Positions 2,062 through 43,655 of a stretch of 64,000 nucleotides of DNA are shown here, in pieces; the first letter of the stretch is position 1, and each line of letters begins with the position of its first letter. The notes beneath the pieces are model-generated. The model was not told the origin of the DNA and did no database searches. It saw only the letters and a list, made by a program, of their open reading frames with translations. The stretch lies in NCBI RefSeq assembly GCF_014201335.1, contig NZ_JACHEB010000012.1, forward strand, positions 124,001 through 188,000, given 5' to 3'. Source of the DNA: Tunturiibacter gelidiferens (GTDB lineage Bacteria > Acidobacteriota > Terriglobia > Terriglobales > Acidobacteriaceae). The position numbers were made by a program, and so were the translations under genes.

Positions 2062-2146
2062 GCGGAGGTGGCGAAATTGGCAGACGCACTAGCTTGAGGT
2101 GCTAGCGCCGCAAGGCATAGGGGTTCAAGTCCCCTCCTCCGCACCA
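2062..2146 (+). tRNA. tRNA-Leu (anticodon GAG)
   Basis: Acceptor strands GCGGAGG (2062-2068) and CCTCCGC (2136-2142) pair perfectly, followed by discriminator A and an encoded CCA (2144-2146). The anticodon stem CTAGC/GCTAG closes a seven-base loop TTGAGGT with anticodon GAG at 2096-2098. The long variable arm is typical of tRNA-Leu, and the T arm contains GGTTCAAGTCC. An extended -10-like TGCTATACT lies about 60 bp upstream. The 3' half of this gene is repeated at 27445, which marks it as an integration site. Confidence 0.97.
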
Positions 2147-2339: not shown

Positions 2340-3290
2340 CGGTCGGACTGCATGGTGTCGCGACTGATGGATCGATGCTCGCGTTTGAGACAAGACTTGG
2401 AGGAGGAGATGGAGTTGAGACCATTTCGTGGATCTTTGTCGTGGTGAGGTCCTGAAAGAATATCTCGCGTTAGGTCGCCCTCGGGCATCGCGTTCCTGAA
2501 TCGAAGTCGGGGCGTCTACTACTCGCATGACGTCCGAGACAACGCGGCTTCTCACGTCATCAACCGTCATGTCTTTGGAGAGCCTCTGGAAAGAGATGTA
2601 CTGGTCTTCTCGTTGCCGCGTACAGCGCGAAGTCGGCTTGTGTTGCTCTCCGACGAGATCGATTTGGGTGCGATGTACATTTACGACTCGGGACAGCACC
2701 TGGCAGCGACGCTTATCTTGCTTCCAGAGCTGAAGATACCTATTGGCGGCCAGTCTTCCAGAGGTTCTCTGCAACCTGCATGCCGGCACTCAGAAACGGT
2801 CTATCTTCTTAGCCATGTACGATTCGGCAACCGGTGGCTCAATCGTTGAATTGGACCGTGAAGGACAGGTCCGAAGGGTGATCGTTGCGGAGCAAGAACG
2901 GCACATCCACCAGGTATCGATCCGAAATCACTACATATACGTTCTTTATCTTGAGAATCTCAGGATGAGTCTCCACCTATGGGGAATCACAGTGGGGGAT
3001 CTCGGGCAATAGAAACTCCGGAGGACGGAACCATACGGCTCATTCCGTCATATCTAGCTGCAGATGACATGTTGTTTTATGAGTTCGAGTCTCGCTCGTT
3101 AGCCCCCACCATCTTTCAGTATTCTCCTGACTCGCGTTCCTCCGCGGTCTGGCACGCCCCATTTTCCCCGGCTCCGCTTCCCCGATGTGAATCGCGTGTT
3201 CTCTCTTACACGGCAAAAGATGGAATCCGAATGGGATGCCAACCTTACCACACGACGGAACGCTCTCGACTGGTCTCGCAACCCCTGGCT
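2340..3290 (+). pseudogene. Prolyl-oligopeptidase (S9A) remnant, lasso-isopeptidase-like
   Basis: Several frames joined end to end give the N-terminal propeller of a prolyl oligopeptidase. Around 2370 one frame reads ATDGSMLAFETRLGGGDG; from 2463 another reads SGIAFLNRSRGVYYSHD, then ERDVLVFSLP. From about 2770 a third reads IFLAMYDSATGG and IYVLYLENLRMSLHLWG. From 3010 a fourth reads IETPEDGTIRLI and ends in LSYTAKDGIRM, the usual strand before the catalytic domain. The Ser-Asp-His domain is gone. At least three frameshifts and one stop make it non-functional. It runs straight into an AsnB-like fragment. The isopeptidase identity is inferred from that neighbour. Confidence 0.6.
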
Positions 3291-3610
3291 GACTCCTCCG
3301 ATCATTGGATAGTATTCGATGGTCGACTCGATAACTACCAGGACCCGTAAGTGGACCTGGACATTCAGGATGCAAAAACACCAGATACCGTCATAGCCTC
3401 TTCATCGCACGTCTCGTCGTCTCCCGCGCTTCAAGCGCGCCGATAACTTGGAGCTTAACGCATCCCGCTGGAGACCTGCCTTCTCATTCCATCTGTTCTC
3501 ATCAAGATGATGACGTCGCAATTGGTTGATCTGAAACAAATTTGTGATCCTGCTGGTACGCGACGGGTCGAAGTAGCAGGCGATGGCATGCTTCCCTAGC
3601 AATTCCGATT
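3290..3610 (+). pseudogene. Asparagine-synthetase-like (lasso cyclase type) N-terminal remnant
   Basis: Directly after the peptidase remnant the same frame reads HWIVFDGRLDNYQDP, the glutamine-amidotransferase-domain signature of AsnB-like enzymes. It passes a TAA and continues VDLDIQDAKTPDTVIA, which fits the next conserved segment. At 3544 another frame gives VILLVRDGSK and then a stop, matching the strand before the usual GxxPLYY. No intact ATP-pyrophosphatase domain remains. AsnB homologues of this type close the macrolactam ring of lasso peptides, or make asparagine; the remnant is too short to tell. Confidence 0.45.
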
Positions 3611-3616
3611 TTGGAT

Positions 3617-4192
3617 CTACGGAGGACTCGAGCGCCGGATAGCGCATCCGCGCGCCGCCGATTCGGCCATTTCGACCGGCTTGCCCTCAAGCACAGCTTC
3701 GATGGCAAGCCGGAGCCCCTGTTTCGTCGTCCGCTCCGGATTCAGCGCGTCTTCTATATAGCCGTGGTACTGCATCACTCCGGATGAATCCATGACAAAT
3801 GTATCTGTAGTCGCTAACACTCCGAAGCCGTCGGACGCCTGGTTATTTACATCCAGGTATACCGGAAAATCGAACCCAACTTCTTTGGCGTACGCTCGCA
3901 CCTCCTCGAGCGACTCATTGGAGTTGGAGTCCACAACGATAAAGTTCACGCGCTTTCTGAAATCTCTATAGACGGTATTCCGCCGAAAGTTGAACGCGTT
4001 GGATATCGGACAACGTGTAGAAAAAAACATCACTACGGTTACTTTACCCTTGAGCGCCTGATAGCTCAGAGAGTTACCGCTCATGTCATGCAACGTGAAA
4101 TCGGATACCGGTGCCCCTAGATGAAACTGCTGAGCACACATCGCTTGGGTCATCAAAACTAAAATCACGGCGGTGAGTAACACTGCCTTCAC
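3617..4192 (-). CDS. Secreted redoxin (AhpC/TSA-thioredoxin fold)
   Basis: The chosen GTG at 4192 has AAAGGAG seven bases upstream and opens a signal peptide (VKAVLLTAVILVLMTQAMCA). The mature domain has GAPVSDFTLHDMSGN, KGKVTVVMFFSTRCPISN and a PVYLD strand followed by ATTDTFVMD, all typical of TlpA/redoxin proteins. The active-site position has a single cysteine (CPISN) rather than CxxC. A second cysteine sits in the conserved C-terminal GCAIRR. The 191-residue protein begins 37 bp after the copper-radical oxidase stop on the same strand, so the two are likely co-transcribed. It may use or repair the oxidase's redox products; that is inference. Confidence 0.8.
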   Translation of the reverse strand: MKAVLLTAVILVLMTQAMCAQQFHLGAPVSDFTLHDMSGNSLSYQALKGKVTVVMFFSTRCPISNAFNFRRNTVYRDFRKRVNFIVVDSNSNESLEEVRAYAKEVGFDFPVYLDVNNQASDGFGVLATTDTFVMDSSGVMQYHGYIEDALNPERTTKQGLRLAIEAVLEGKPVEMAESAARGCAIRRSSPP

Positions 4193-4229
4193 GGCTTCTC
4201 CTTTGCTCTCAAGCATAGCTAACGGACTC

Positions 4230-7200
4230 TCACGGCAGCTGAACAAACGGTGCAATCGACGGAACGCCTGCGGTGTTCAAGATAAACAACATGTAGAAGC
4301 CGGGCGGAGCGAGATTCGCATCGACAGGTGCTGTGACGGTGAGGCCACCGCTGGTTTGTGTGAAGCTTAGCGGCACATAGCGCTCATTCTCGTCGAAGAA
4401 ATGTGTCACGGCACCACTTCGAATCAATACGACACTTGCTATAGTCGCACCGTCCGGTGTGCTCACAAAGAAATTTGAGCCGTATTGTATTTGGCTGGGC
4501 GCCTGACTAATCGTCGGCCGGGCACCTTTGAATAGATAGGGCGGCGAGTAAAACTCCGCACTCTCCTCATTGGGAACATTTCCGAAGTCAGCCCCCATTC
4601 CAGACTCCAACACCCTTCCGTCCGGCAATAGCAGAGCTGTGCCGTGGTACTCCCTGGGGGTATGCATCGAGGCCATAGTGGTCCATGTCTGTGTCTGCGG
4701 CGACCACAGTTCGGCGGCGTAGACCGCTTTGCTGATATCTCCGCCATTCTTATCGGTCTCACCGCCGGTCGCCAGAACTGTACCGTCGGGCAGCATCGTG
4801 AGATTTAAGAAGCTGCGCGGATACGCCATCGACGCCGTTTGATGCCATGTGGGTGAGGGTTGAGTCATATCCAACACAAAGGTTGTGTTGGAGGAAGGTC
4901 CGACGTTCTGGCTGTCAGCGGCGCTGCCTGCCTTCATAAACTTGCCCGGCAGGTACATCGTCGCGCTACCACCATCGACGATGTTGGAATCAACTACAGA
5001 CCAGTTCGTCGTCGTGAGATCGAGTATGTCTGTGTCGGTAGCATACTCCGAACCGCCAATATGGATGACTCTTCCATCGGGCATAACGTACATAAACGGA
5101 TAGGTCTCGAAGGGGTTGTTGGCATTCGTGAGGGATGTCCATGTGTTTGTCGCAGGAGCATAGATCTCCGAGATCCCTGCATTGGTATTTGCACTGGTCT
5201 GCCAACCGGCCACAACCAGAATCCGACCATCCGAAAGTGTGGTTGCGTTCGGATACCAGCGCCGGTACTGCATGTCGGGTACGGGAGTCCAGGTCAAGCT
5301 TGTCGGATCAAAGATCTCAGCATTCTTGATACCAATGGTTGTCGCGCTTCCACCGTATCCTCCGACAACGAGTATTCTGCCGTCGGACATCAAAGCATGT
5401 CCAGAGCAGAAGAGATCCGGAGACGTGGGAACGTTTGTGAACGTACTAGCAACATAGTCCCAAACTGTCGGCGTCGCGCCATCCTGATAAAAGAGCACCC
5501 GGTTATTTCGCAGAAGGATGAGATTTACTGCGACAGCGGGAGTTTTAACCGCAGCAGACCAGCTTCCGACTATCGATGCGTTTGCGGAGTTGTTGACCGT
5601 AACCGCGACTGGAGCCGAAGTCGTGCTGAGCCCCACACTGTCACGTGCGCGAGCCGACAGTGTATGCGGACCGTCGGCCACCGTCGTCGTGTCCCACGTA
5701 ATGGAATAAGGAGAACTGAGGACCTCGGCGCCCAGCGATGCACCATCGAGCAGGAACTGAACTCCTGCAACAGAGATCGTGTCTGAAGCCGTCGCAGAGA
5801 CCGTCACCAGGCTCGATAGCAGCGTACCTTGAGCTGGCGAAGTCATCGACACCGTTGGAGGCGTCGAATTTACGCCGCCACTGCCGGGGAGGACTTCGAC
5901 GATGCTCAGGTTGAAACGATCTTTGGTTGGCGCCGTATCATTGATCGTGACAGTCGTTCCAGCCACGGGAACAGGATTGGTCTGCATCTGGACCCAGTAC
6001 GTATCGCCAGTAGATGTCAGATCCTGATGCACCAAGGTCTGTCCCGTGCCCACGGTTCGCGCAGCGGCATTATCGAAGTCGTTCCCGACCCCGAGGACCC
6101 ACGAGTTGTTCGTTGTGCTCACAAGCGAAGCTGTCGGCGCACCTGTGGAGGCACTCTTACTGCCGACCGCGCCAATTGCCCCGGATCCGTTTGTGCCTGC
6201 AGTGCTGACGCCCGAGAAGCTCATGACAGTTATCGAAGAGATGACGCTTTGAGACAAACTCGCTGTAACCGTCACGTTGCTCGCAGTCGATGCCGCAAAA
6301 GCTCGCCAGATCTCGGCAGAGCCACTTTGTCCATTGGTTCTCTGCACCAGCGTCCACGTCAGCCCTGCTCCAGTGACTCCCGTCACAGTCGTATTGGCGC
6401 CGCTTAGGTAATCCGTGGAAACAAAGGCCAGCAGCAACTCGCTCGCTGTTGCCGTGGAGAAGGCGGGGCTGGCAATCGTCGCACTTGCCTTTGCTCCATC
6501 CTGAGACTTGTTCACATCCAGCGAGATAGAATTTGCGGGCGCGATAGCAGTGAAATTTATTCCGGTGATGTCGGAACTGGCAATCGCGACTGCTTGATTG
6601 AGAGGGTTGAAGGTATAGCCGCTTTTGGTTGGCGTGACCGAATAGGAGCCGTTCGCCAAACCTGAAAACATATAGTTGCCGTTTGTATCGGCGATACTAT
6701 TCGCGCTCGCGGCTCCGGTCAACGCAACCGTTGCGCCGCTTCCCCCTGAAGCAGGGCTAATACTGCCGGAGATGCTCCACGTCGGACCTGTCCCATGAGC
6801 TGCGAAATTGATTCCAGCTTGATTCGCGCCGTTGACGGTGACTGCTTGATTGACGGGATTGAATGTATACCCCGTTTTGGCAGGCGTAATCGTGTATAAG
6901 CCGTTTCCCACTCCAGCAAAGGTGTAGTTCCCGTTTGCATCGGCAACGCTCGCTCCACTGGCCGCTCCGCTTAACGTAACTGTTGAACCGCTCCCACTCG
7001 CTGCAGGAATGATGCTTCCCGAGATACTCCAGGCGGATACGATCGGCTGGGCTGTAAAATTCACCGCGGTCTGATTCGTTCCATTCAAGTTGACTGCCTG
7101 GCTCACCGGGCTGAAGGTATAGCCGCCATTGCTTGGTGTAATCGTGTACGAGCCATTCGGTAATCCAGAAAATGTAAAGTTTCCGTTCGCATCTGCAGTT

Positions 7201-8966
7201 GTCGTCGCACTCTCCAGGCCACTAAGCGTAACTGTGGCACCGCTCCCACCCGTAAAAGGAGTGATGGTTCCAGAGATCACCCCTTGAGTCGCAGTATTTG
7301 GACGGAAGGTGGCCACGCGAGCAAACCACGTTCCGCTCGTCTGTGTAAAAGTTGCAGCGACACTCCCTGCTGTGGATTGAATCTCGTACTCATCAAGATC
7401 ACCGTTTACAAAAGTTATACCGGTAAATCCCGAGCCGGCCGCGGCGGTGTTCATGAGAAAGGTATAACCGTAGATCAACTCTCCATCAGCGGTTGTCGTG
7501 ACAGCCCTGCTTGATGCAGTTGTTCCGGCTCCCGCGGCAGACGCAAACACGTCCACAGGGTAAGTAGAAGAGATTCCAGACCACTCTGAAACATGGACCT
7601 CGAGAGCCCCAGCAGTCGCAGGCGTCAAGGTCACTGTATTCGCTCCGCCCTTGCAGCTCGGCACATACCACAGGTATGAAGTCACATTTTGATTCGTATC
7701 GGTAACCGGGGTGGTCACTGGAGTATAGGTATTCCCCGAAGTGTCGGAGATCGTAAGTGTTCCTGCGGGGCGTGCAATCGAACCTGACACAAGCAGGAAA
7801 TCTCCGGCCGTATTTGGAACCGTGAAAGATGTAGCAATGCTCGACGCAGATGATTCGTTTCCGTTTTCATTTGCCTGCATCAATTGGACGCCGCCTGTCA
7901 CAACTGGCTGCGCCGCAAAGACAGCCGAGACGTTTGCGCCGTTGACCGTTACCAGTTGCGATACCGGGGAGAACGTAAAGCCGGACTTGCTGGGTGTGAC
8001 CGTATAGGAGCCATTCGCCAACTGCGTAAAGCTATAGTTGCCGTTCGCATCAGCGACCGTACTTGCGCTCGATGCTCCGCTCAGCGTAACCGTGGCTCCA
8101 CTTCCGCTGGCTGCTGGGCTAATACTGCCCGAGATGCTCCACGACGGACCGCTCGCGGCAACTGGGAGAATCTCACAGATGCTCAGGTTGAATCGATCCT
8201 TTGTGGGCGCTGTGTCGTTAATGGATACCGTCGTCCCGGTGACGGGAATCGGGCTGGTCTGCATCTGGACCCAGTACGTATCGCCAGTCGGTGCCAGATA
8301 TTGGTGAAGCAGCGTCTGTCCTGCACCAACCGTTCTTGCAACAGCATTGTCGAAGTCGTTCCCGACTCCGACAACCCACGAGTTGTTCACCGTAGTCACT
8401 AACGACGCGGTAGGCGCTCCCGAAGCCGCGCTCTTGCTTCCGACCGCTCCGATCGCCCCGGACCCATTCGTGCCGGAGGTGTTCACTCCCGCAAAGCTCA
8501 TGACGGTCATTGACGAGATAACACTTTGAGACAGAGTAGCCGCGACCGTTACGCCACTCAGCGGTGTGGCCGCAAAGGCCCTCCAAATCTCCGAAGATCC
8601 GCTCTGCCCGTTCGTTCGTTGGACCAGGACCCAGATCAATCCGCCGCCTGTGACGCTCTTTACCGTCGTGTTCGCGCCGCTCAGATAGTCCGTCGCAACA
8701 AACGCCAGCAACAATTCGTTCGCTTGGGAGGTTGAAAACGTGGGGCTCGTAATCGTCGCACTGGCAGCAGAGTTATCCTTCGATACGGCGGCGTCGGTCG
8801 CGATCGCCCCACGTGCGTAGCTCGTAAAGATCGCCGTCAGTAAGAGTGAAAGGAGTACGGCACGCCCGAGCGAACTTCCTATTTTAACGCTTCGCCAGAA
8901 TGCACACAACCTACGACAGCTAATTTCTCCATTAGTGAAGAATGATTGGAACGTCCAAGCGGCCAC
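4230..8966 (-). CDS. Modular secreted copper-radical oxidase (galactose/glyoxal-oxidase type)
   Basis: GTG at 8966 has GGAGG five bases upstream and starts a signal peptide (hydrophobic core near residues 36-50). Residues about 54-268 form a beta module that recurs at about 810-1030. Between them are four carboxypeptidase-regulatory-like repeats (ISGSI...ANGNYTF type) and one further beta domain. An Ig-like domain (about 1033-1127) precedes a seven-blade Kelch domain and a C-terminal DUF1929 domain. The galactose-oxidase metal and radical residues are all present: Cys1187 (FCSG), Tyr1238 (RWYPN), Tyr1440-His1441 (EYHG) and His1522 (VTHFF). Such enzymes oxidise alcohols or aldehydes, releasing H2O2. 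Substrate is unknown. At 1578 residues it is far longer than the ~650-residue family core. Confidence 0.85.
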   Translation of the reverse strand: MAAWTFQSFFTNGEISCRRLCAFWRSVKIGSSLGRAVLLSLLLTAIFTSYARGAIATDAAVSKDNSAASATITSPTFSTSQANELLLAFVATDYLSGANTTVKSVTGGGLIWVLVQRTNGQSGSSEIWRAFAATPLSGVTVAATLSQSVISSMTVMSFAGVNTSGTNGSGAIGAVGSKSAASGAPTASLVTTVNNSWVVGVGNDFDNAVARTVGAGQTLLHQYLAPTGDTYWVQMQTSPIPVTGTTVSINDTAPTKDRFNLSICEILPVAASGPSWSISGSISPAASGSGATVTLSGASSASTVADANGNYSFTQLANGSYTVTPSKSGFTFSPVSQLVTVNGANVSAVFAAQPVVTGGVQLMQANENGNESSASSIATSFTVPNTAGDFLLVSGSIARPAGTLTISDTSGNTYTPVTTPVTDTNQNVTSYLWYVPSCKGGANTVTLTPATAGALEVHVSEWSGISSTYPVDVFASAAGAGTTASSRAVTTTADGELIYGYTFLMNTAAAGSGFTGITFVNGDLDEYEIQSTAGSVAATFTQTSGTWFARVATFRPNTATQGVISGTITPFTGGSGATVTLSGLESATTTADANGNFTFSGLPNGSYTITPSNGGYTFSPVSQAVNLNGTNQTAVNFTAQPIVSAWSISGSIIPAASGSGSTVTLSGAASGASVADANGNYTFAGVGNGLYTITPAKTGYTFNPVNQAVTVNGANQAGINFAAHGTGPTWSISGSISPASGGSGATVALTGAASANSIADTNGNYMFSGLANGSYSVTPTKSGYTFNPLNQAVAIASSDITGINFTAIAPANSISLDVNKSQDGAKASATIASPAFSTATASELLLAFVSTDYLSGANTTVTGVTGAGLTWTLVQRTNGQSGSAEIWRAFAASTASNVTVTASLSQSVISSITVMSFSGVSTAGTNGSGAIGAVGSKSASTGAPTASLVSTTNNSWVLGVGNDFDNAAARTVGTGQTLVHQDLTSTGDTYWVQMQTNPVPVAGTTVTINDTAPTKDRFNLSIVEVLPGSGGVNSTPPTVSMTSPAQGTLLSSLVTVSATASDTISVAGVQFLLDGASLGAEVLSSPYSITWDTTTVADGPHTLSARARDSVGLSTTSAPVAVTVNNSANASIVGSWSAAVKTPAVAVNLILLRNNRVLFYQDGATPTVWDYVASTFTNVPTSPDLFCSGHALMSDGRILVVGGYGGSATTIGIKNAEIFDPTSLTWTPVPDMQYRRWYPNATTLSDGRILVVAGWQTSANTNAGISEIYAPATNTWTSLTNANNPFETYPFMYVMPDGRVIHIGGSEYATDTDILDLTTTNWSVVDSNIVDGGSATMYLPGKFMKAGSAADSQNVGPSSNTTFVLDMTQPSPTWHQTASMAYPRSFLNLTMLPDGTVLATGGETDKNGGDISKAVYAAELWSPQTQTWTTMASMHTPREYHGTALLLPDGRVLESGMGADFGNVPNEESAEFYSPPYLFKGARPTISQAPSQIQYGSNFFVSTPDGATIASVVLIRSGAVTHFFDENERYVPLSFTQTSGGLTVTAPVDANLAPPGFYMLFILNTAGVPSIAPFVQLP
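5885..6535 (-). repeat. Second copy of the duplicated module in the oxidase gene
   Basis: Encodes oxidase residues of about 810-1030 and matches the 8155-8800 copy in the same orientation at high identity, so it is an intragenic duplication and a possible recombination substrate. Confidence 0.8.
6536..7300 (-). repeat. Tandem ~250-bp carboxypeptidase-regulatory-like repeats
   Basis: Three adjacent units (about 6536-6785, 6785-7036, 7036-7300) each encode ISGSI-ASGSGATVTLSG, ADANGNYTF and YTFNPVNQAVTV-like strands of a transthyretin-fold domain. A fourth unit lies at about 7900-8150. Confidence 0.75.
8155..8800 (-). repeat. First copy of duplicated N-terminal module in the oxidase gene
   Basis: This DNA encodes oxidase residues of about 54-268 and is closely repeated at 5885-6535. 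Shared protein stretches include ELLLAFV-TDYLSGANTTV, LVQRTNGQSGS-EIWRAFAA, and NDTAPTKDRFNLSI. Confidence 0.8.
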
Positions 8967-24478: not shown

Positions 24479-25915
24479 CTAACGACGCTTCAGTAAGCTG
24501 GCCACTCGCTTCGCGAGGCCTCCCCAAGGCGGTCCGAGCTGCTCGAAGACATTCAGCATTCTTACTTTGTAAACCGAACGCACGTGGCTGAACCGTCGGA
24601 ACCCATCACGCCCGTGATAGGCACCCATGCCGCTCGGTCCGACGCCACCGAACGGCAGCCCGTCTTGTGCGATATGAAGAAGAGTCCCGTTGATTGTGAC
24701 GCCACCGGAACTGACTCGTTCGAGAACCTTATTCTGCGTAATCTTTTCATTGCTGAAACAGTAGAGCGCCAGTGCTTTTGGTCGCTCATTGATAAAATCG
24801 AACGCTTCTTCGAGCGTTTCGTAAGAAACAATCGGTAGGACTGGCCCAAATATCTCATCCTGCAACAATGAGCACCCTGCGGGGGCGCCGAGTACAACCG
24901 TAGGGGCGATCGCAGCCTGTTGGGACTCTGGCGTTGTCGTTAGCAACGTTGCTCCTCCCGCTTTCGCTTCGGCTAGAGCATCGAGGAGCCGCGCCCGATG
25001 GCGCTCATTGATGATGGTGCTGTAATCAGGATTCTCTTGGATGGTCGGATAAGCTCGTTGTGCCCGCGTGATGACCTCCTCGGCAAATTCGCGACACAGA
25101 TTCGATGGAACAAGAACATAGTCAGGCGCAATACAAGTCTGCCCTGCGTTCAGGAATTTTCCGAAAGCGATGCTTCGCGCTGCCTTCTCCAGGGAGTAAT
25201 CGGCGCAAACGATTGCGGGTGACTTTCCGCCAAGCTCGAGCGTTACGGGTGTAAGATTTTCCGCTGCCGCCTTCATCACCTCGCGTCCTATAGAGGTCGA
25301 CCCAGTGAAAATGAGATGATCGAAGGGAAGGCGTGCGAACTCGCGGGCGGTGGATAGGCCACCCGTCACCACCGTTATCTCTGTGGTATCGAAGTGGGAT
25401 GAGATGAGCTTGTGGAGGAGTTTTGAGAAGCAGGGCGTGAGCTCAGAAGGTTTGATCATGACACGGTTACCAGCGGCGATCGCGTCGACAAGCGGTGAGA
25501 GGCTCAGTAGTAGCGGATAATTCCACGGCGCGATGATGCCTATGACTCCTAGCGGTTCATAACGGATCCAGGCACGTCCAGGTTGGAACGTTAGGTCAAC
25601 GGGTCGTGTCTCCGGACGCATCCACGCGGCTAGATTTCGATGGGCATGGCGGATCGCGTTCAAGACCGGGATCATTTCGAGCATCTCGGTTTCGGTAGTC
25701 GAACGATTTCCGAAATCATTGCAAATACTTTTTTTAATCGCCTCGCCATTATTGAGGATCAGGGCACGAATAGTCTTGAGGGACTTCACGCGTTGCTTGA
25801 CCGTTAGCGTTGGCACAGTTCGAGACGCAAGGCGTTGCGCTCGGAACAGATCATGTATTGCATCTAGAGTCGTTTCGTCATTGATCCTCGTGCTCACGTC
25901 GGTGATTTGCGGCAT
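24479..25915 (-). CDS. Aldehyde dehydrogenase family protein (coniferyl-aldehyde-dehydrogenase type)
   Basis: This 478-residue enzyme has the full class-3-like ALDH set: PLGVIGIIAPWNYPLLLSLSP, FTGSTSIGREVM, VTLELGGKSPAIV with the general-base Glu, FLNAGQTCIAPDYVL with the catalytic Cys, and LPFGGVGPSGMGAYHGRDGF near the end. Class-3 and CalB-type enzymes oxidise aromatic or long-chain aldehydes with NAD(P). It lies directly downstream of a short-chain dehydrogenase fragment on the same strand. This arrangement is common for an alcohol-to-aldehyde-to-acid pair whose first gene is now broken. Confidence 0.9.
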   Translation of the reverse strand: MPQITDVSTRINDETTLDAIHDLFRAQRLASRTVPTLTVKQRVKSLKTIRALILNNGEAIKKSICNDFGNRSTTETEMLEMIPVLNAIRHAHRNLAAWMRPETRPVDLTFQPGRAWIRYEPLGVIGIIAPWNYPLLLSLSPLVDAIAAGNRVMIKPSELTPCFSKLLHKLISSHFDTTEITVVTGGLSTAREFARLPFDHLIFTGSTSIGREVMKAAAENLTPVTLELGGKSPAIVCADYSLEKAARSIAFGKFLNAGQTCIAPDYVLVPSNLCREFAEEVITRAQRAYPTIQENPDYSTIINERHRARLLDALAEAKAGGATLLTTTPESQQAAIAPTVVLGAPAGCSLLQDEIFGPVLPIVSYETLEEAFDFINERPKALALYCFSNEKITQNKVLERVSSGGVTINGTLLHIAQDGLPFGGVGPSGMGAYHGRDGFRRFSHVRSVYKVRMLNVFEQLGPPWGGLAKRVASLLKRR

Positions 25916-26689: not shown

Positions 26690-27348
26690 GTGGCATCGAT
26701 CTCCGCCCTTACTTCGGCAACGTAAGGGCAGCCAGATTGTCAACCGACTTGATGGAAAGATATCGAGAAAAGCGAACTGCCCAGGGTCGTACCCATGCGA
26801 CAGTCAATCGTGAGCTTTCGATCATTCGAACCGCCTTTCACAATGCGCGAAAACGCACCCCTCCCAAAGTGAATGTGGTTCCCTATTTTCCAATGGTGAA
26901 GGAAACAACAGTCCGGTCGACTTCGAGACTAACCTAATAAACTTGAATCCCGACAAGACTAAGACCGGCGAAGGTCGCACGGTGCCCATTTTTGATGGGG
27001 ATATGAGGGACTTTCTTTTGGCAGCCAAAAAGGAGCGCGACGAACAGCGGCCGGATTCGCCTTGGGACTTCAATCGCGAGGAAAGGCAAATTATCGACTT
27101 CCGTATATTGTGGGCAAATGCCTGTAAAAAGCCGGAGTGCCTGATCTTAAATTCCATGACCTTCGTCGAACAGCAGTTCGCAACATGCGACGAGCAGGGG
27201 TACCGCAAGTGATTCGGATGAAAATCAGCGGACTAAAAACGATTCGATGGAGCGTCGCCATAATATCGTAGATACTGACGATTTGAATATTGCCAGGGAG
27301 TTTGTGAAACGTCGGATGATGCCGACAAAAACTGTAACTAAAGTGTAA
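26690..27348 (+). pseudogene. Tyrosine recombinase (island integrase) remnant
   Basis: Three frames give one integrase. LRPYFGNVRAARLSTDLMER and ATVNRELSIIRTAFHNAR form the core-binding domain. DKTKTGEGRTVPIFDGDMRD opens the catalytic domain (from ~26945). [20 protein letters not shown] carries the box-II HxxR region (~27150-27210). [18 protein letters not shown] is the C-terminal motif, where the nucleophilic Tyr of RYNIVD has become His. The N-terminus is missing, and two or more frameshifts occur. It ends 96 bp before the right tRNA-Leu repeat, the normal place for the enzyme that inserted the island. Confidence 0.85.
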
Positions 27349-27444: not shown

Positions 27445-27512
27445 GCTTGAGGTGCTAGCTCCGCAAGGTATAGGGGTTCAAGTCCCCTCCTCCCACCAAT
27501 CCAACAAATCAA
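27445..27512 (+). repeat. Right attachment repeat (attR-like, partial tRNA-Leu copy)
   Basis: Copy of 2092-2160 with three substitutions and one missing base. It contains the anticodon loop, variable arm, T arm and CCA of tRNA-Leu, but no 5' half. The missing G breaks the acceptor stem, so it cannot be a functional tRNA. Confidence 0.85.
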
Positions 27513-37736: not shown

Positions 37737-40700
37737 ATGAAGACACCGCTCTCTCTCCGACGTACAGTTGCCGGTCTCTGCGGCTTCATCGCTCTCCTCC
37801 TGATCTCTTCCCTGGCCCTAGCTGCACAGACCACCGGCCCCCAACAACTCCTCTTCACCGGCCTGCTCGGCTCATCAAACCCAAATCCCTCGAACGCCCA
37901 CTACGCACAGTTCAACGCCATCCAGTCCGACTCCTCCGGCAACCTCTACCTCCTGCTCGACCAGGGCGACGGGATCCGCCTCCTCAAAACCGACTCCTCC
38001 GCAACCAACGTCCTCGCCCAAACACACCTAGGTTCCAGCGGCGACATCGGCCTAGCCATGGCCACCGATCCCGCAGGCAATCTCTACATCACCGGCACCA
38101 CCACCTCCGGCACCCTCACCACAACCTCCGGCGCAGCCTTTCCCAGCGCGGCCGATACATCTATCAACTCCTTCATCGGCAAGTTCGATCAAAACTTGAA
38201 TCCGATCTTCCTCACCTACACCGGCAGCCCACGCACCGCCGCCTCCGCCATCGCCGCCACTTCCGACGCCGTCTTCGTCACCGGCAGCATTTTCGGCTCC
38301 ACGCTTCCCGTCAGCCCCTCCGGCATCATCCAGTCCCCCGCCTCCGGCTCCCTGCAAAACGGCTTCGTAGAAAAATTCAACCCCACCGGAACCACCCTCC
38401 TCTACGCGACCTACCTCAGCGGCCAAAACGGCAACACCGCACCCGCCGCCATCGCAGCCGACCCCTCCGACAACGCCTACATCGCCGGCTACACCACCTC
38501 CACCGGCTACCCTACCCTCTCCGCCATCATTTCCGACATCCTCACCACCACCTCCGGCTTCCTCACCAAGCTCACCCCCGCAGGCGACGGAATAGTCTTC
38601 TCCACCTTCATCCCCGGCCCCGGCATCTCCTCCCTCGCCATCGACCCCGTCGCCCAGAACCTCCTCCTCACCGGCTCCATCGCCCCCGGCCAGTTCCCTA
38701 TTGCCTCCGTCTCCTCTCCATTAGTCAACACGAACTACCAAACCCTCCTCCGTCTCTCCTTAGACGGCAGCACCCTCATAACCTCCGAACTTCTCGCCCC
38801 CGGCACACAATCCTCCGTCACCCCCGCACCCTCCGGCGCCGCCTGGGTCTCGGCAACAGGCAACAACCCCGCCTGGCTCCTCCCGCTTAACGCCCTCTCC
38901 ACCATCGGCAACAGCTATGCCCTCCGCATCACGCAACAAAACACCATCGACCAAACCATCCGCCTCGGCGGAATCCCCACTACCAACCTTGCCTTCGCGA
39001 GCGCCCCCGTCACCCTCACCGGCCTCACCGTCGACGCGCTCGGCCAACCCACCTTCGCCGGCAGCGCCTCTCCCACCGCCAGCTCCAGCCTCCTCGCCAC
39101 CGAAACCTACGACCTCCCGCTCCTCAACACGCCAACCACCGCACTCCCCTCACCCCTCCGCTCCGCCGCACTCACCACCGGCTCCTGCACCGGAAGCCTC
39201 TGCGCCGGTTCTGCCGCCTACCTCGCGAAGCTCAACCCCACCACCGCCGCGCCCAGCCTAGCTATCTCCACCGACGACTCCCCCAACCTGACCCTCCGCA
39301 ACCTAGGCAGCCTAGCCGTAACCAACCTCCAACTCACAGCCACAAACTTCACCCTCGCCACCGACTGCCCCACCACGCTCGCTCCCGGAGCCGACTGCAG
39401 CATCGCCCTCACCAGTACCGGCAGCAACTCCGGCACGGTCACCGCCCAAGCCAGCAACGCCACCACGCAAACCGTCACGCTCCCCGCGACCACAGCCACA
39501 CCAAACGCAATCGTCTTCTCCCCGCGCGAACTCGACTTCGGCATCCAAACCGCGACCAGCCCCATCGCCACACGAACCATCACAGTTACAAATCTCAGCA
39601 ACGCCCCGCAAACCTTCCCCTCGCAACTCGGCAGCAACCAATCCACCCCCTACACCTTCGCCGAATCCTCCAGCGACTGCCTCGTCGTAACCGGCAACAC
39701 CAAAACCCTCGCCGCCAACTCCACCTGCCACATCACCCTCAGCTTCACTCCCTCCAACTCCTCCGCCAGCGACGGCTTCGCCCAAATCCCGTGGACCATC
39801 GGCACCGACTCCGCCCTCCTCACCGCCTACTCCCAGGCCACCGACCTCAACCTCTCCGCCACCGAAATCGACTTCGGCACCCAATTCGGCACCGGCTCCG
39901 ACGCCAGCCCCACACTGCTTCGCTACCTCTACCTCTCTAACAACTCCGCCAACGCCATCACCCACTCTGCAGTCACTCTCGCCGACCCGTTCACCCTCAC
40001 CGATCACTGCCCCACCACGCTCGAACCCCACATCGTCTGCCAACTCGAAATCACCTACAAATCCCCCGTAGCCCCGTCAGCCGACTCCACCACCCTCACC
40101 CTCGACGAAGGCCTCACCGTCCTCATCACCGGCGCCACTCACCCCCAACCCACCGGCATCGGCCAGTCCGCCAACCCCAACCTCACCGTCACCCCCGCCA
40201 CCATCAACTTCTCCAACGCCGTCCTCGTCACCAGCACATCCGGCACCACCCAAACCGTCACCATCAGCAACATCGGCGTCGTCCCCTTTCCACTCGCCCT
40301 CACCCTCACCGGCGACTTCACCGACGCGACCGACTGCACCGCCACCCTCGCCGGCAACGCAACCTGCACCGTCGTTCTCACCTTCGCGCCATCGCAACCA
40401 GGCACCCGCCAGGGCCTCCTCTCCGTCGCCGCCGGCAACTCCTCTCCGTCTTACGTGACCCTCAGCGGCACCGGCACCGCCATCGTCACCGCACCCAACA
40501 ACACCCTCGCCTTCGGCAGCGTTCTCGTAGGCCAACCGTCAGTCCAGTGGTACAAGGTCAATTCCGCTTTCAGCACCCTCACGGCCACCACCTCCGCACC
40601 CGACTTCAGAGCCATCCTCGTAGAAGACATCGGCTTCGGCCACGGCCAGCCTCCAACCTCCGCCTTCCTCTCGACCTTCACCGGCTCCTGCACCAACTGC

Positions 40701-43655
40701 TGGCTAGGCGTGCAGTTCACCCCCTCCACCCCCGGCACTCAAACCGCCACCGTCACCCTCACCTCCTCCGCCTCCGGCACCCCGTCCCCACTCACCCTAA
40801 CCGGCACAGGCGTAGCCCTCTCCGGCCTAATCCTTAGCCCCACCACGCAGGACTTCGGCACCGTCCCCGTCCACAGCACCAGCGCCCCCTCACTCTTCAC
40901 CCTCACCAACCTCACTACCGCCACCGTCAACCTCACCGCCCCCATCTCCACCGGCGACTTCGCCCTCAGCAACGCCCCCACCGGAGGCTCCGCCTGCAGC
41001 GGCCCTCTCGCGCCCAACGCCTCTTGCTTCTTCAACGTCAACTTCTCCCCCACCGCCACCGGCGCACGCACCGCCACCCTCACCCTACAGGCCTCCACCG
41101 GCCCCATCACCGCCACCCTCACCGGCTTCGGCTCACCCGACCCCGGCCTCGCCCTCAACCCCACCGCTCTTATCTTCAATAACGTCCCCGGCCTCTCCTC
41201 CACGCAACAAAACATCATCCTCACCAGCACCGGCTCCGCCACTCTCCAGATCGCCACCCCCACCAACACCACCGCCAGCTTCACCTCCACCAGCAACTGC
41301 ACCACCCTCGCCCCCGCCGCCATCTGCACCATCACCGTCAACTTCGTCCCCACCAACGCCAACGTCACCGACACCCTCCAGATCCCCGTAACCAGCTCAG
41401 CCACCGGCCCAACCACCTACTCGGTCCAGCTCAGCGGCGCCTACACCACCGAGAGCGCGGGCCTCCAGATCATCCCCAACCAGGCCAACTACGGCTCCGC
41501 CCCCACCAGCACCCTCGGCGGAACCCGCCAGTTCACCATCACCAACCTCACCGCCAAATCCCTCGCCCTCGACATCGCGCTCCCCCGCCAGTTCCTCCTC
41601 AACGGCCCCGCCTGCTCTGCCCTCGCCCCCAACGCCTCCTGCAACTTCGACATCACCTTCCTCCCCCTCACCAACGGCGACATCACCGGCACCCTCTTCG
41701 CCCAGGCCACCCCCACCGACGGCTCCGCCACCCTCAACGGCCTCGGCTTTGTCGAAGGCTTCGGCATCGGCTCCGCGACCCTCACCATCTCCGGCAACAT
41801 CATCCCCGGGCAAACTGTCCTCGACTTCGGCCAGGTCTCCTCCGGCCAAAGCACCACCCAAACCGTCACCCTCACCAACACCGGCACAGCCTCACTCACC
41901 ATCCGCCGCCTAACCAGCCAGTGGCCTTTCCTCATCGCCGCCACCAATTGCGTCAACACCCTGGCCCCCAACCAAAGCTGCGCCACCACCCTCGCCTACA
42001 CTCCCATCAACCAAACTGCCACCACCCCCGGCCCCGCCACACCCGACTCCGGTACCCTCATCATCGAAAGCGACGCTCTCAGCGCCCCCGACCTCCTCAC
42101 CCTCACCGGCCGCGCCGCCCCCATCACAGTATCCGCTCCCTCAAACGCCGCCCCGCTAGTCTCCTACGCGCTCTCGCAAAGCTCCCTCACCTTCGGCCCT
42201 ACCCAGGTAGGCAACCTCACCGAAACCCAAACCGTCACCCTCTCCAACACCGGCACCACCACCCTGCACTTCCAACCCATCCACCTCATACCGGACTTCA
42301 CCATCCAATCCACCTGCGCCACGCTCGTCCCCTCGCAGAGCTGCACCATCCTCATCGCCTTCTCCCCACAACCGGTCGCCACCAACACCACCACCAACCG
42401 CATCTCCGCCCTCGAAATCGTCTCCGACTCCAGCACCGCTCTCGAGTTCATCTCCCTCCTCGGCATCGCTACTCCATCCCCCATCACCGTCACACCCATC
42501 TCACTCAACTTCGGCTCCGTCCAACTCGGCAGCAGCGCCACCCTCCCCGTCCAGATCACCAACACCAGCGCCACCCCCGCCAGTAACTTCGCTCTCGCCG
42601 CCAGTCCGCCCTACACCGTAGCCAGCGCCTGCCCCACCATCGGAGGCACTCTCGCCGCCGCCACCAGCTGCACTGCCCAAGTGACTTTCACGCCCACCCA
42701 AACCGGCGCAAGCAGCGGCCTACTCAGTGTCCATACCTCCCTCACCGACGTGCCGATCATCGCCAACCTTCAAGGCATCGGCATCCAGTCCCATCTCCAA
42801 GCCGTCCCCACCACTCTCAACTTCGGCAGCATCGCCATCGGAGCCTCCGCGGCCCAAACCCTCACCCTCACCAACACCGGCACCGGCCCCCTCACCAACG
42901 TCGCCCTCACCGTCACCGGCGACTACGCCATCACCGTCCCCTGCACCTCCACCACGATTGCCCCCGGCAACAGCTGCAAGCTCACCGTCACCTTCGCTCC
43001 CACCGCCCTCGGCCCACGCAACGGCACCATCACCTCCACCGACCCCAACACCGGCCTCCAAAACCTCAACATCCCCCTCACCGGGACTGGCGTCCCCAAC
43101 GGCACCTTCACCCTCACCGTCAACGGAGGCCCCTCCGCCACCCTCACCATCCCCAGCGAGCAAGCCGCCGACTACGCCCTCACGCTCACCCCGCAATCCA
43201 ATTACAGCGGTACCGTCATCCTCAACTGCACCCCCGTCACCCCCGGCCCCTACGCCGCCTGCTCGCTTCTCCCCTCCAGCATCAATCTCAACGGCGCAGC
43301 ACAAAACTCCATCGCAAACATCAACACCGTAGCCGACGTCCCACCCACCACCTCCCAAAACACTCACGCCACGCGCAACCGCACCCTCCTCTGCCTCCTG
43401 CCCCTCTCGTTCCTCTTCTTCAGAAAATCAAAATCAAGCAGCCCGCAAAAACCCCACCCCACCCGCCTGCTCTTATTCGCAATCCTCCTCACCCTACCCG
43501 CGCTCTGGATCTCCGGCTGCGGCCGAGGGGGCACCGATCCCAACCTCCGCTTCACCCCACCGGGCACCTATCAATACCAGGTCACCGCCACCTCCACCAC
43601 CGGTGTCGAACTCACCCAAACCGTCACCCTCAACCTCGTCGTCACAGCCCAATAA
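37737..43655 (+). CDS. Giant secreted choice-of-anchor-D (ASH) repeat protein with SBBP-like propeller
   Basis: 1972 residues. A signal peptide (to ~AAQ, residue 30) is followed by a propeller-like region of about 440 residues with SBBP-like units (DPAGNLYITGTT, DPSDNAYIAGYTT). From about residue 500 there are roughly ten ~110-residue immunoglobulin-like units with the choice-of-anchor-D pattern: LDFGxxxxG, QTVTLTNTGTASL, CxxTLAPNxSC, VTFxPTxxGxxxG. Near the C-terminus are two hydrophobic stretches (LLCLLPLSFLFF and LLLFAILLTLPALWISGCG) and a final Ig-like strand set ending TVTLNLVVTAQ. It is probably a surface adhesin or matrix protein. Third positions are very strongly C-biased, which creates long false ORFs on the other strand. 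Confidence 0.85.
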   Translation: MKTPLSLRRTVAGLCGFIALLLISSLALAAQTTGPQQLLFTGLLGSSNPNPSNAHYAQFNAIQSDSSGNLYLLLDQGDGIRLLKTDSSATNVLAQTHLGSSGDIGLAMATDPAGNLYITGTTTSGTLTTTSGAAFPSAADTSINSFIGKFDQNLNPIFLTYTGSPRTAASAIAATSDAVFVTGSIFGSTLPVSPSGIIQSPASGSLQNGFVEKFNPTGTTLLYATYLSGQNGNTAPAAIAADPSDNAYIAGYTTSTGYPTLSAIISDILTTTSGFLTKLTPAGDGIVFSTFIPGPGISSLAIDPVAQNLLLTGSIAPGQFPIASVSSPLVNTNYQTLLRLSLDGSTLITSELLAPGTQSSVTPAPSGAAWVSATGNNPAWLLPLNALSTIGNSYALRITQQNTIDQTIRLGGIPTTNLAFASAPVTLTGLTVDALGQPTFAGSASPTASSSLLATETYDLPLLNTPTTALPSPLRSAALTTGSCTGSLCAGSAAYLAKLNPTTAAPSLAISTDDSPNLTLRNLGSLAVTNLQLTATNFTLATDCPTTLAPGADCSIALTSTGSNSGTVTAQASNATTQTVTLPATTATPNAIVFSPRELDFGIQTATSPIATRTITVTNLSNAPQTFPSQLGSNQSTPYTFAESSSDCLVVTGNTKTLAANSTCHITLSFTPSNSSASDGFAQIPWTIGTDSALLTAYSQATDLNLSATEIDFGTQFGTGSDASPTLLRYLYLSNNSANAITHSAVTLADPFTLTDHCPTTLEPHIVCQLEITYKSPVAPSADSTTLTLDEGLTVLITGATHPQPTGIGQSANPNLTVTPATINFSNAVLVTSTSGTTQTVTISNIGVVPFPLALTLTGDFTDATDCTATLAGNATCTVVLTFAPSQPGTRQGLLSVAAGNSSPSYVTLSGTGTAIVTAPNNTLAFGSVLVGQPSVQWYKVNSAFSTLTATTSAPDFRAILVEDIGFGHGQPPTSAFLSTFTGSCTNCWLGVQFTPSTPGTQTATVTLTSSASGTPSPLTLTGTGVALSGLILSPTTQDFGTVPVHSTSAPSLFTLTNLTTATVNLTAPISTGDFALSNAPTGGSACSGPLAPNASCFFNVNFSPTATGARTATLTLQASTGPITATLTGFGSPDPGLALNPTALIFNNVPGLSSTQQNIILTSTGSATLQIATPTNTTASFTSTSNCTTLAPAAICTITVNFVPTNANVTDTLQIPVTSSATGPTTYSVQLSGAYTTESAGLQIIPNQANYGSAPTSTLGGTRQFTITNLTAKSLALDIALPRQFLLNGPACSALAPNASCNFDITFLPLTNGDITGTLFAQATPTDGSATLNGLGFVEGFGIGSATLTISGNIIPGQTVLDFGQVSSGQSTTQTVTLTNTGTASLTIRRLTSQWPFLIAATNCVNTLAPNQSCATTLAYTPINQTATTPGPATPDSGTLIIESDALSAPDLLTLTGRAAPITVSAPSNAAPLVSYALSQSSLTFGPTQVGNLTETQTVTLSNTGTTTLHFQPIHLIPDFTIQSTCATLVPSQSCTILIAFSPQPVATNTTTNRISALEIVSDSSTALEFISLLGIATPSPITVTPISLNFGSVQLGSSATLPVQITNTSATPASNFALAASPPYTVASACPTIGGTLAAATSCTAQVTFTPTQTGASSGLLSVHTSLTDVPIIANLQGIGIQSHLQAVPTTLNFGSIAIGASAAQTLTLTNTGTGPLTNVALTVTGDYAITVPCTSTTIAPGNSCKLTVTFAPTALGPRNGTITSTDPNTGLQNLNIPLTGTGVPNGTFTLTVNGGPSATLTIPSEQAADYALTLTPQSNYSGTVILNCTPVTPGPYAACSLLPSSINLNGAAQNSIANINTVADVPPTTSQNTHATRNRTLLCLLPLSFLFFRKSKSSSPQKPHPTRLLLFAILLTLPALWISGCGRGGTDPNLRFTPPGTYQYQVTATSTTGVELTQTVTLNLVVTAQ

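Follow-up and report, generated by a model that had tools for sequence, protein, structure and literature searches.

A predicted copper radical oxidase with a modular arm and an adjacent redoxin on a genomic island of Tunturiibacter gelidiferens

Two adjacent genes of the soil acidobacterium Tunturiibacter gelidiferens, in a 64,000-nucleotide stretch of its genome (assembly GCF_014201335.1, contig NZ_JACHEB010000012.1, positions 124,001 to 188,000; hereafter the window), encode a large protein and a small redoxin. Sequence comparison and structural modeling predict that the large protein is an exported copper radical oxidase with the galactose-oxidase fold and a complete first shell of cofactor residues. 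The two genes are inherited together and lie next to each other, and they travel as a unit, at RNA-gene integration sites in both congeners that carry them. As an explanation of the whole we tentatively favor, at a little below an even prospect, a mobile enzyme resembling GlxA and the aldehyde oxidases that is equipped with a redox accessory dedicated to it. The oxidase itself is of a known kind, though divergent; what is new is the dedicated redoxin, the conserved arm in front of the oxidase domain, and a double Trp at the predicted active site.

As far as we have found, maturation of the Tyr-Cys cofactor in bacteria is known mainly from GlxA of Streptomyces. The clade described here, in which the oxidase has a redoxin and its sisters have none, is a natural comparison of the same enzyme with and without a partner, and with it the bacterial members of the copper radical oxidase family gain a group from Acidobacteriota. 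The putative double second-sphere Trp also makes it possible to test a recent suggestion (excerpts of PMC13094651) that the place of this residue bears on aldehyde versus alcohol oxidation. In the open-access literature, titles and abstract openings held nothing on point for copper radical, glyoxal or galactose oxidases of Acidobacteria or for a galactose oxidase with a redoxin; likewise, the work listed on bacterial DUF1929 enzymes and on AA5 enzymes in Acidobacteria held, judging from the listings, nothing on this group.

Results

The oxidase domain and its predicted active site

The oxidase gene (4230..8966; this gene, the redoxin gene and all features within them lie on the minus strand) starts with a GTG at 8966, with GGAGG just ahead of it, and encodes a multi-domain protein of 1578 amino acids, as established from the open reading frame (ORF), Pfam matches and a residue check. 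The last third of the protein matches GO-like_E_set (PF09118; 88 bits, cut-off 25), Kelch families, and Glyoxal_oxid_N (48.5 bits against a cut-off of 37.5); by Pfam, alignment and model, the oxidase domain consists of a Kelch propeller followed by an E-set (residues 1126-1578; 4233..5591).

A first-pass annotation of the window had credited this domain with every active-site residue of galactose oxidase, and the positions it named are correct: C1187, Y1238, Y1440, H1441 and H1522, that is, the Cys, two Tyr and two His of the first shell, are invariant in all 23 rows of alignment A3 (the window and 22 of the 23 loci from one contig scan, a Phycisphaerae locus, L133, being left out). The rows span Acidobacteriota, Pseudomonadota, Planctomycetota, Actinomycetota, Chloroflexota, Cyanobacteria and Daviesbacteria, and first-shell invariance across them, as a pattern of aligned residues, is not chance. 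By homology, Tyr1440-His1441 (4644..4649) and His1522 (4401..4403) are expected to bind copper, and Cys1187 (5406..5408) to form the thioether. The latter is the sole Cys of the oxidase domain in all ten members of the close group defined below; therefore any thiol chemistry on that domain hits the cofactor Cys. The alignment places a Trp directly before the cross-linking Tyr (Trp1237-Tyr1238; 5253..5258), within an Arg-Trp-Tyr (RWY) sequence found in 23 of 23 rows, and aligns W1237 with W288 of GlxA, at a column where the W288A chains 5LXZ and 5LQI have Ala. A further Trp, W1255 (5202..5204), aligns in sequence with the GGSW Trp of the bacterial galactose oxidase 9G8H, which is the type of galactose oxidase (GalOx) W290; in A3 the nine close rows all have it and the 14 others lack it, and it is present in the congener G310 too (alignment A1). 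Both W1237 and W1255 probably lie near the cofactor.

An AlphaFold2 model of residues 1121-1578, built from an alignment of 23 sequences, has a mean pLDDT of 90.0 and a pTM of 0.91. Its best match in VIA-align is GlxA of Streptomyces lividans (4UNM; Z 49.7, rmsd 2.2, 454 residues aligned), followed by bacterial and fungal galactose/alcohol oxidases (Z 44.8-48.6) and a Fusarium aldehyde/glyoxal oxidase (Z 41.8); after the copper radical oxidases the next row drops to 23.7, and Foldseek is concordant. Alignment to the solved enzymes predicts a geometry suited to the Cys1187-Tyr1238 cross-link. Against the GlxA equivalog of NCBIfam (NF052501) the protein scores 267.3 bits, well under the cut-off of 800. 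By analogy of W1237, aldehyde oxidation appears the likelier activity.

The redoxin

Judged by eye, the redoxin most likely starts at the GTG at 4192, behind an AAGGAG; the gene therefore occupies 3617..4192, and the gap between the oxidase stop and this start (4193..4229), which contains the AAGGAG, is 37 bp, as the first-pass annotation had stated. The protein matches AhpC-TSA (54.6 bits against a 26-bit cut-off) and also Redoxin, and has a hydrophobic N-terminal segment that by eye would serve in export. Its active-site motif in the window is S-T-R-C-P-I-S, and CxxC is absent from the five members aligned. The earlier description of a single active-site Cys is thus right for this motif but not for the protein, which near its C-terminus has another Cys, in a GCxxR motif, that is invariant across the same five sequences.

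The peroxiredoxin motif is PxxxT/SxxC; here the Ser at -3 is kept, and the Pro at -7 is replaced by Val in the window. The score against the ResA family NF002854 is 52 bits, with a cut-off of 170, and a CxxC of the thioredoxin/ResA type is lacking. The hallmarks of Sco proteins are CxxxC and a conserved His, and we rejected a Sco-type chaperone: there is no CxxxC (no Cys at +4), PF02630 scores 18.2 against 22.8 bits, and no His is fully conserved, that of the motif YHG being Arg in L095. A model from four sequences reached a pLDDT of 76.9, the remaining four of the five models lying at 36-57. By model and by sequence alike, the nearest solved relatives are 2YWI, 2CVB and 3U5R, titled as uncharacterised, hypothetical or thioredoxin-like proteins; none is a peroxidase, and peroxiredoxins come lower in the list.

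Association of redoxin and oxidase among relatives

A survey of 398 genomes of the family found PF09118 in 58, at 86 places, of which 82 were fetched with their surrounding stretches (G385:C356, G163:C355, G086:C768 and G259:C124 were omitted). Ten distinct genes form the close group, whose oxidase domains are 70-85% identical to that of the window: the window itself, G310, L115 (Acidobacteriaceae bacterium KBS 83, of the window's own family), L116, L117, L118, L119, L120 (titled a Burkholderiales metagenome-assembled genome), L121 and L124. Using a hidden Markov model made from five sequences, we found a redoxin within 2 kb of the oxidase in five of these ten (the window included; for the redoxin-less L119/L094 the upstream stretch is only 727 bp), as against 0 of 90 other oxidase ORFs. 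Those 90 are BLASTP matches at E<=1e-5 and include pieces of the same gene counted separately; flanking sequence reaches 1 kb or more in both directions for 72 of them and falls short of that for 18, five loci repeating a genome already counted (L113, L115, L116, L119, L124) were dropped, and the count stands apart from the more distant phylum matches and from the oxidases of 43-46% identity in three congeners. The first-pass annotation had called for a survey of whether the redoxin neighbor is conserved: it is, within one clade that makes up half of the close group, and it is not in the other half or among the 90.

On the tree, a branch with support 98/98 sets the five redoxin-bearing oxidases apart, a pattern explained by one change, and no redoxin-less member falls within their clade. 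The redoxin lies directly downstream of the oxidase in four of the five (0 to about 45 bp; starts by eye), while in L117 it is inverted, divergent and upstream, yet still adjacent; the pair spans at least three genera. Only at seven positions of the oxidase domain do the redoxin-bearing members all share a residue that none of the redoxin-less members has, and none of these positions is a ligand. We also considered whether extra cysteines could explain the redoxin and rejected this: the redoxin-bearing oxidase clade has no conserved additional Cys.

Redoxin homologues at E<=1e-22 occur in five of the 398 family genomes (in many genomes just the best eight candidates were scored). Four of them, at E<=1e-50 (that of the window, and the rest with 48-63% identity to it), are beside the oxidase; the fifth (G031, 33% identity) has a different neighborhood and is not. 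All four redoxin genomes are thus among the six with a close oxidase (hypergeometric P = 1.5e-8, ignoring kinship). In the genus, two of 60 genomes carry the close oxidase, and three more have one at 43-46% identity; a phylum-wide search found an oxidase at E<=1e-70 in 12 of 396 genomes, the close kind only in G000 and G310.

Some other arrangements were seen among the fetched loci. About 40 bp downstream of the L117 redoxin, and in the same direction, is an ORF (2713-4116) that by eye reads like a flavin disulfide reductase. With the same redoxin query, Gemmataceae gave a domain of 31% identity fused to a Cu2_monoox_C domain (L172). Such Gemmataceae redoxin domains sit near the N-terminus of proteins of 650-730 amino acids (L172 2331-4343, L171 4936-6882, L173 5732-7921): in L172 Cu2_monoox_C is over its cut-off and accompanied by a weak cytochrome match, L171 has weak haem/cytochrome matches, and L173 shows no further family. 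Locus L079 (4529-12526) has an ORF of 2665 amino acids with two tandem copper radical oxidase domains and Big_7 domains between them.

The genomic island

That the pair lies in a mobile region had been suggested in the first-pass annotation, and the boundaries of this region can now be set. The integration site is a tRNA-Leu(gag) gene (2062..2146, plus strand), and a near-identical copy of its 3' half (27445..27504, plus strand) forms the distal, attR-like end; aligned over 61 columns, this repeat is 95% identical to the end of the tRNA in G209 and G284, which is also how the tRNA of the window ends. The tRNA 3' end is thus repeated 25.3 kb away, giving an island of about 25 kb (2147-27504). 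In G209 and G284 the site is empty: the left flank of the window (to 2153) and its right flank (from 28630, a sugar-transferase gene) are 100 bp apart. The right edge is approximate, because the 1.1 kb past the repeat is also absent from these two genomes. Six congeners were examined in all; G257 has 2.5 kb between the flanks, G324 has no tRNA in its stretch, and in G336 and G305 the right flank was not found within the 19.5 kb examined. Beside the distal repeat a tyrosine recombinase is left as decayed pieces spread over several frames (26737..27260, plus strand, right end approximate; Int_N E 0.0013 and Phage_integrase E 0.0085, both under the Pfam cut-offs). No intact integrase was found among the part of the island ORFs scanned; with its integrase decayed, the island is therefore probably immobile now.

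In G310, with 15 kb compared on each side, blastn found similarity to the window only at 3641-8811, that is, the two genes; tblastx, among the matches listed, added short stretches dispersed over other parts. In this genome the pair is next to ssrA, the tmRNA gene, and 3 bp from the redoxin stop the 3' end of the tmRNA recurs over 35 bp at 91% (E 4e-7). Situated between ssrA and the redoxin, this repeat therefore marks the near edge of the pair; a far-edge copy was not found in the 77.5 kb searched. The tmRNA gene is at 5027-5379 of locus L080 and, some 0.9 kb further along, its 3' end is repeated (G310:C1:1119281-1119315), which suggests a small or remnant ssrA insertion. The stretches of L115-L121, L124 and L177 showed neither a tRNA nor a tmRNA gene, so an RNA-gene location is established for two of the ten members only. 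We also looked for a close copy on known plasmids and rejected this possibility: tblastn with the oxidase domain gave 44 records, none reaching 60% identity (35.6% for the best one listed), and with the redoxin region there were no records. In GC content, over the first 20 kb of the window, the pair does not stand out.

Besides the pair, the island carries genes for YjbR, MarR, YceI, luciferase-like, Thioredoxin_9, deformylase, outer-membrane receptor-like, S9 peptidase and aldehyde dehydrogenase proteins. The aldehyde dehydrogenase gene (24482-25915) is 15 kb from the oxidase, with no link between them shown. After the tRNA there is a short open frame (2979-3350) with no Pfam match, probably a remnant, whose end, WIVFDGRLDNY, looks by eye like the start of an asparagine-synthetase-type protein. 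Elsewhere in the window, 37737-43655 encodes a protein of 1972 amino acids with SBBP and many HYDIN/ASH-type Ig-like domains.

The modular arm

Ahead of the oxidase domain are some 1100 residues of beta modules, in which Pfam recognizes CarboxypepD_reg in four stretches and Big_7; in this the module map agrees with the first-pass annotation. The protein opens with an export segment recognized by eye (residues 1-52, hydrophobic at about 33-52 and ending in SYARG; 8811..8966). Then follow a module that we name JRa, with no Pfam match (copy 1, residues 53-272; 8151..8810), the first CarboxypepD_reg-like repeat (CRD; residues 273-352; 7911..8150), a second module named here, JRb (residues 356-560; 7287..7901), which is present in four of the ten close members, CRD repeats 2-4 (residues 564-803; 6558..7277), a second JRa (residues 813-1028; 5883..6530) with 77% identity to the first, and a Big_7 Ig-like domain (residues 1031-1120; 5607..5876).

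All ten close members have the architecture JRa-CRD(1-5)-[JRb in 4]-JRa-Big7-oxidase. Just two copies of JRa were found in the genome of the window, both inside this protein, and among the fetched ORFs, which are a biased sample, JRa occurs in oxidase-bearing ones only. No relative of JRa was found among solved structures, the search giving a single row at E 0.051.

Discussion

Function of the pair

We propose that copper would be bound by Y1238, Y1440, H1441 and H1522, with the radical on the C1187-Y1238 thioether and W1237 as the second-sphere Trp. By comparison of fold and ligands, the enzyme would use O2 to oxidize primary alcohols or aldehyde hydrates and would release H2O2, and the arm, with its two JRa bookends around one to five CRD repeats plus Big7, may hold it at the surface or on a polymer. 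The likeliest task for the redoxin, putatively exported and dedicated to this oxidase, is in maturation: in the periplasm it would keep Cys1187, the only Cys of the domain, in its reduced rather than sulfenylated form until copper and O2 make the thioether. That the genes stand side by side in one branch of relatives suggests that the redoxin helps build or protect the oxidase; that its chemical task is oxidase maturation is a plausible reading that we hold with some reserve, as less than evenly likely. There are precedents: Sco proteins have a thioredoxin fold, and DsbG of E. coli protects lone periplasmic cysteines. Maturation of GlxA in Streptomyces needs Sco and the peroxidase DtpA, the latter being proposed also to remove H2O2 made by GlxA (excerpts of PMC4736821). 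Several observations weigh against a role in maturation. The redoxin cannot be a strict requirement, since five of the ten close members, with the same single Cys, have none of this kind close by; in four of their genomes the only homologues have 25-34% identity, and in the fifth there are none at E<=1e-5. The redoxin itself lacks CxxC, the CxxxC of Sco and a fully conserved His, and the same task could fall to other proteins of the genome, in which there are two matches to the Sco family and two to the DsbD family. Adjacency within a single clade can persist by co-transfer alone, and the substrate of the oxidase is a prediction from sequence.

A rival idea is that the redoxin is instead a periplasmic, peroxiredoxin-like scavenger of the H2O2 that the oxidase makes, the Cys of S-x-x-C being peroxidatic and the C-terminal Cys resolving. 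The AhpC-TSA score well over its cut-off, the Ser at -3 as in T/SxxC and the second invariant Cys all agree with this; the oxidase would make H2O2 by the chemistry of its family, and DtpA offers a precedent in Streptomyces (excerpts of PMC4736821). The Val at -7 where peroxiredoxins have Pro, nearest solved relatives of which none is a peroxidase, and five sister oxidases that do without a redoxin speak against it, and we lean away from scavenging while regarding it as quite possible. We consider it rather improbable that the two genes are together only through the shared island, the redoxin having an unrelated envelope function. The island does carry unrelated genes, and the adjacency may have arisen once, because the redoxin-bearing oxidases are a single clade. 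Yet blastn found no other DNA shared with G310 in the 15 kb compared, the adjacency survives the inversion in L117 and spans at least three genera, and in 398 genomes the redoxin at E<=1e-50 never occurs without the oxidase. The first-pass suggestion of a degradation or antagonism system, in which a surface oxidase would flood neighbors with H2O2 and the redoxin would confer immunity, draws on the H2O2 expected outside the cell, the location on an island and a possible immunity-like partner. It is not supported: Pfam scans of 25 window ORFs (several match nothing) found no toxin, immunity, secretion-effector or glycoside-hydrolase family, and half of the close members lack a redoxin, a poor fit to self-immunity. 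Such a weapon seems to us very improbable.

The most specific form of the maturation proposal is that the redoxin serves the maturation of a single Tyr-Cys copper radical oxidase and is passed on together with it, the two genes forming a mobile unit, and that this oxidase has a hybrid active site, with the aldehyde-oxidase Trp (W1237) and the galactose-oxidase Trp (W1255), from which would come a radical stability or a range of substrates that neither parent type shows. In this full form we think the proposal unlikely, though worth stating.

Comparison with known systems

Among characterized enzymes, GlxA of S. lividans (4UNM) shares the fold, the first shell and the Trp directly before the cross-linking Tyr, and its maturation also needs copper/redox accessory proteins (excerpts of PMC4736821). 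It differs in its sequence (30% identity), and the protein described here has the arm of some 1100 residues and the extra W1255; the partner here is a redoxin, not Sco, and no CslA-type gene is among the neighbors scanned. Galactose oxidases (Fusarium 1GOF and bacterial 9G8H) likewise have the fold (Z 46.1 and 48.1, respectively), the first shell and the W290-type Trp position matched by W1255; identity is 29% to 1GOF and 33% to 9G8H, and 9G8H has Gly before the cross-linking Tyr. We know of no redoxin partner of galactose oxidase. With the AA5_1 aldehyde (glyoxal) oxidases the oxidase shares its Glyoxal_oxid_N match above the cut-off; in one of them, 9N3U of F. graminearum, a Trp again directly precedes the cross-linked Tyr (W509-Y510; excerpts of PMC13094651), although identity is 23% and Z 41.8. 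From this position, the same excerpts indicate, comes the second-sphere Trp of GlxA and the fungal aldehyde oxidase, flipped relative to W290 of galactose oxidase (PMC13094651). According to the available portion of another study (PMC11267884), there are bacterial AA5 enzymes that belong to neither of the two subfamilies.

The redoxin has the fold of 2YWI, 2CVB and 3U5R, which we take to be of the PRX_like1 type, and a C-terminal Cys corresponding to their GCxxK; 3U5R has an S-x-R-C site as well, whereas 2YWI and 2CVB have CxxC where the redoxin has SxxC, and the redoxin differs in being putatively exported and linked to an oxidase. Apart from the decayed state of its integrase, the island resembles known tRNA-borne islands, with a repeat of the tRNA 3' end at its distal edge, an integrase remnant adjoining that repeat, and a short site in some relatives.

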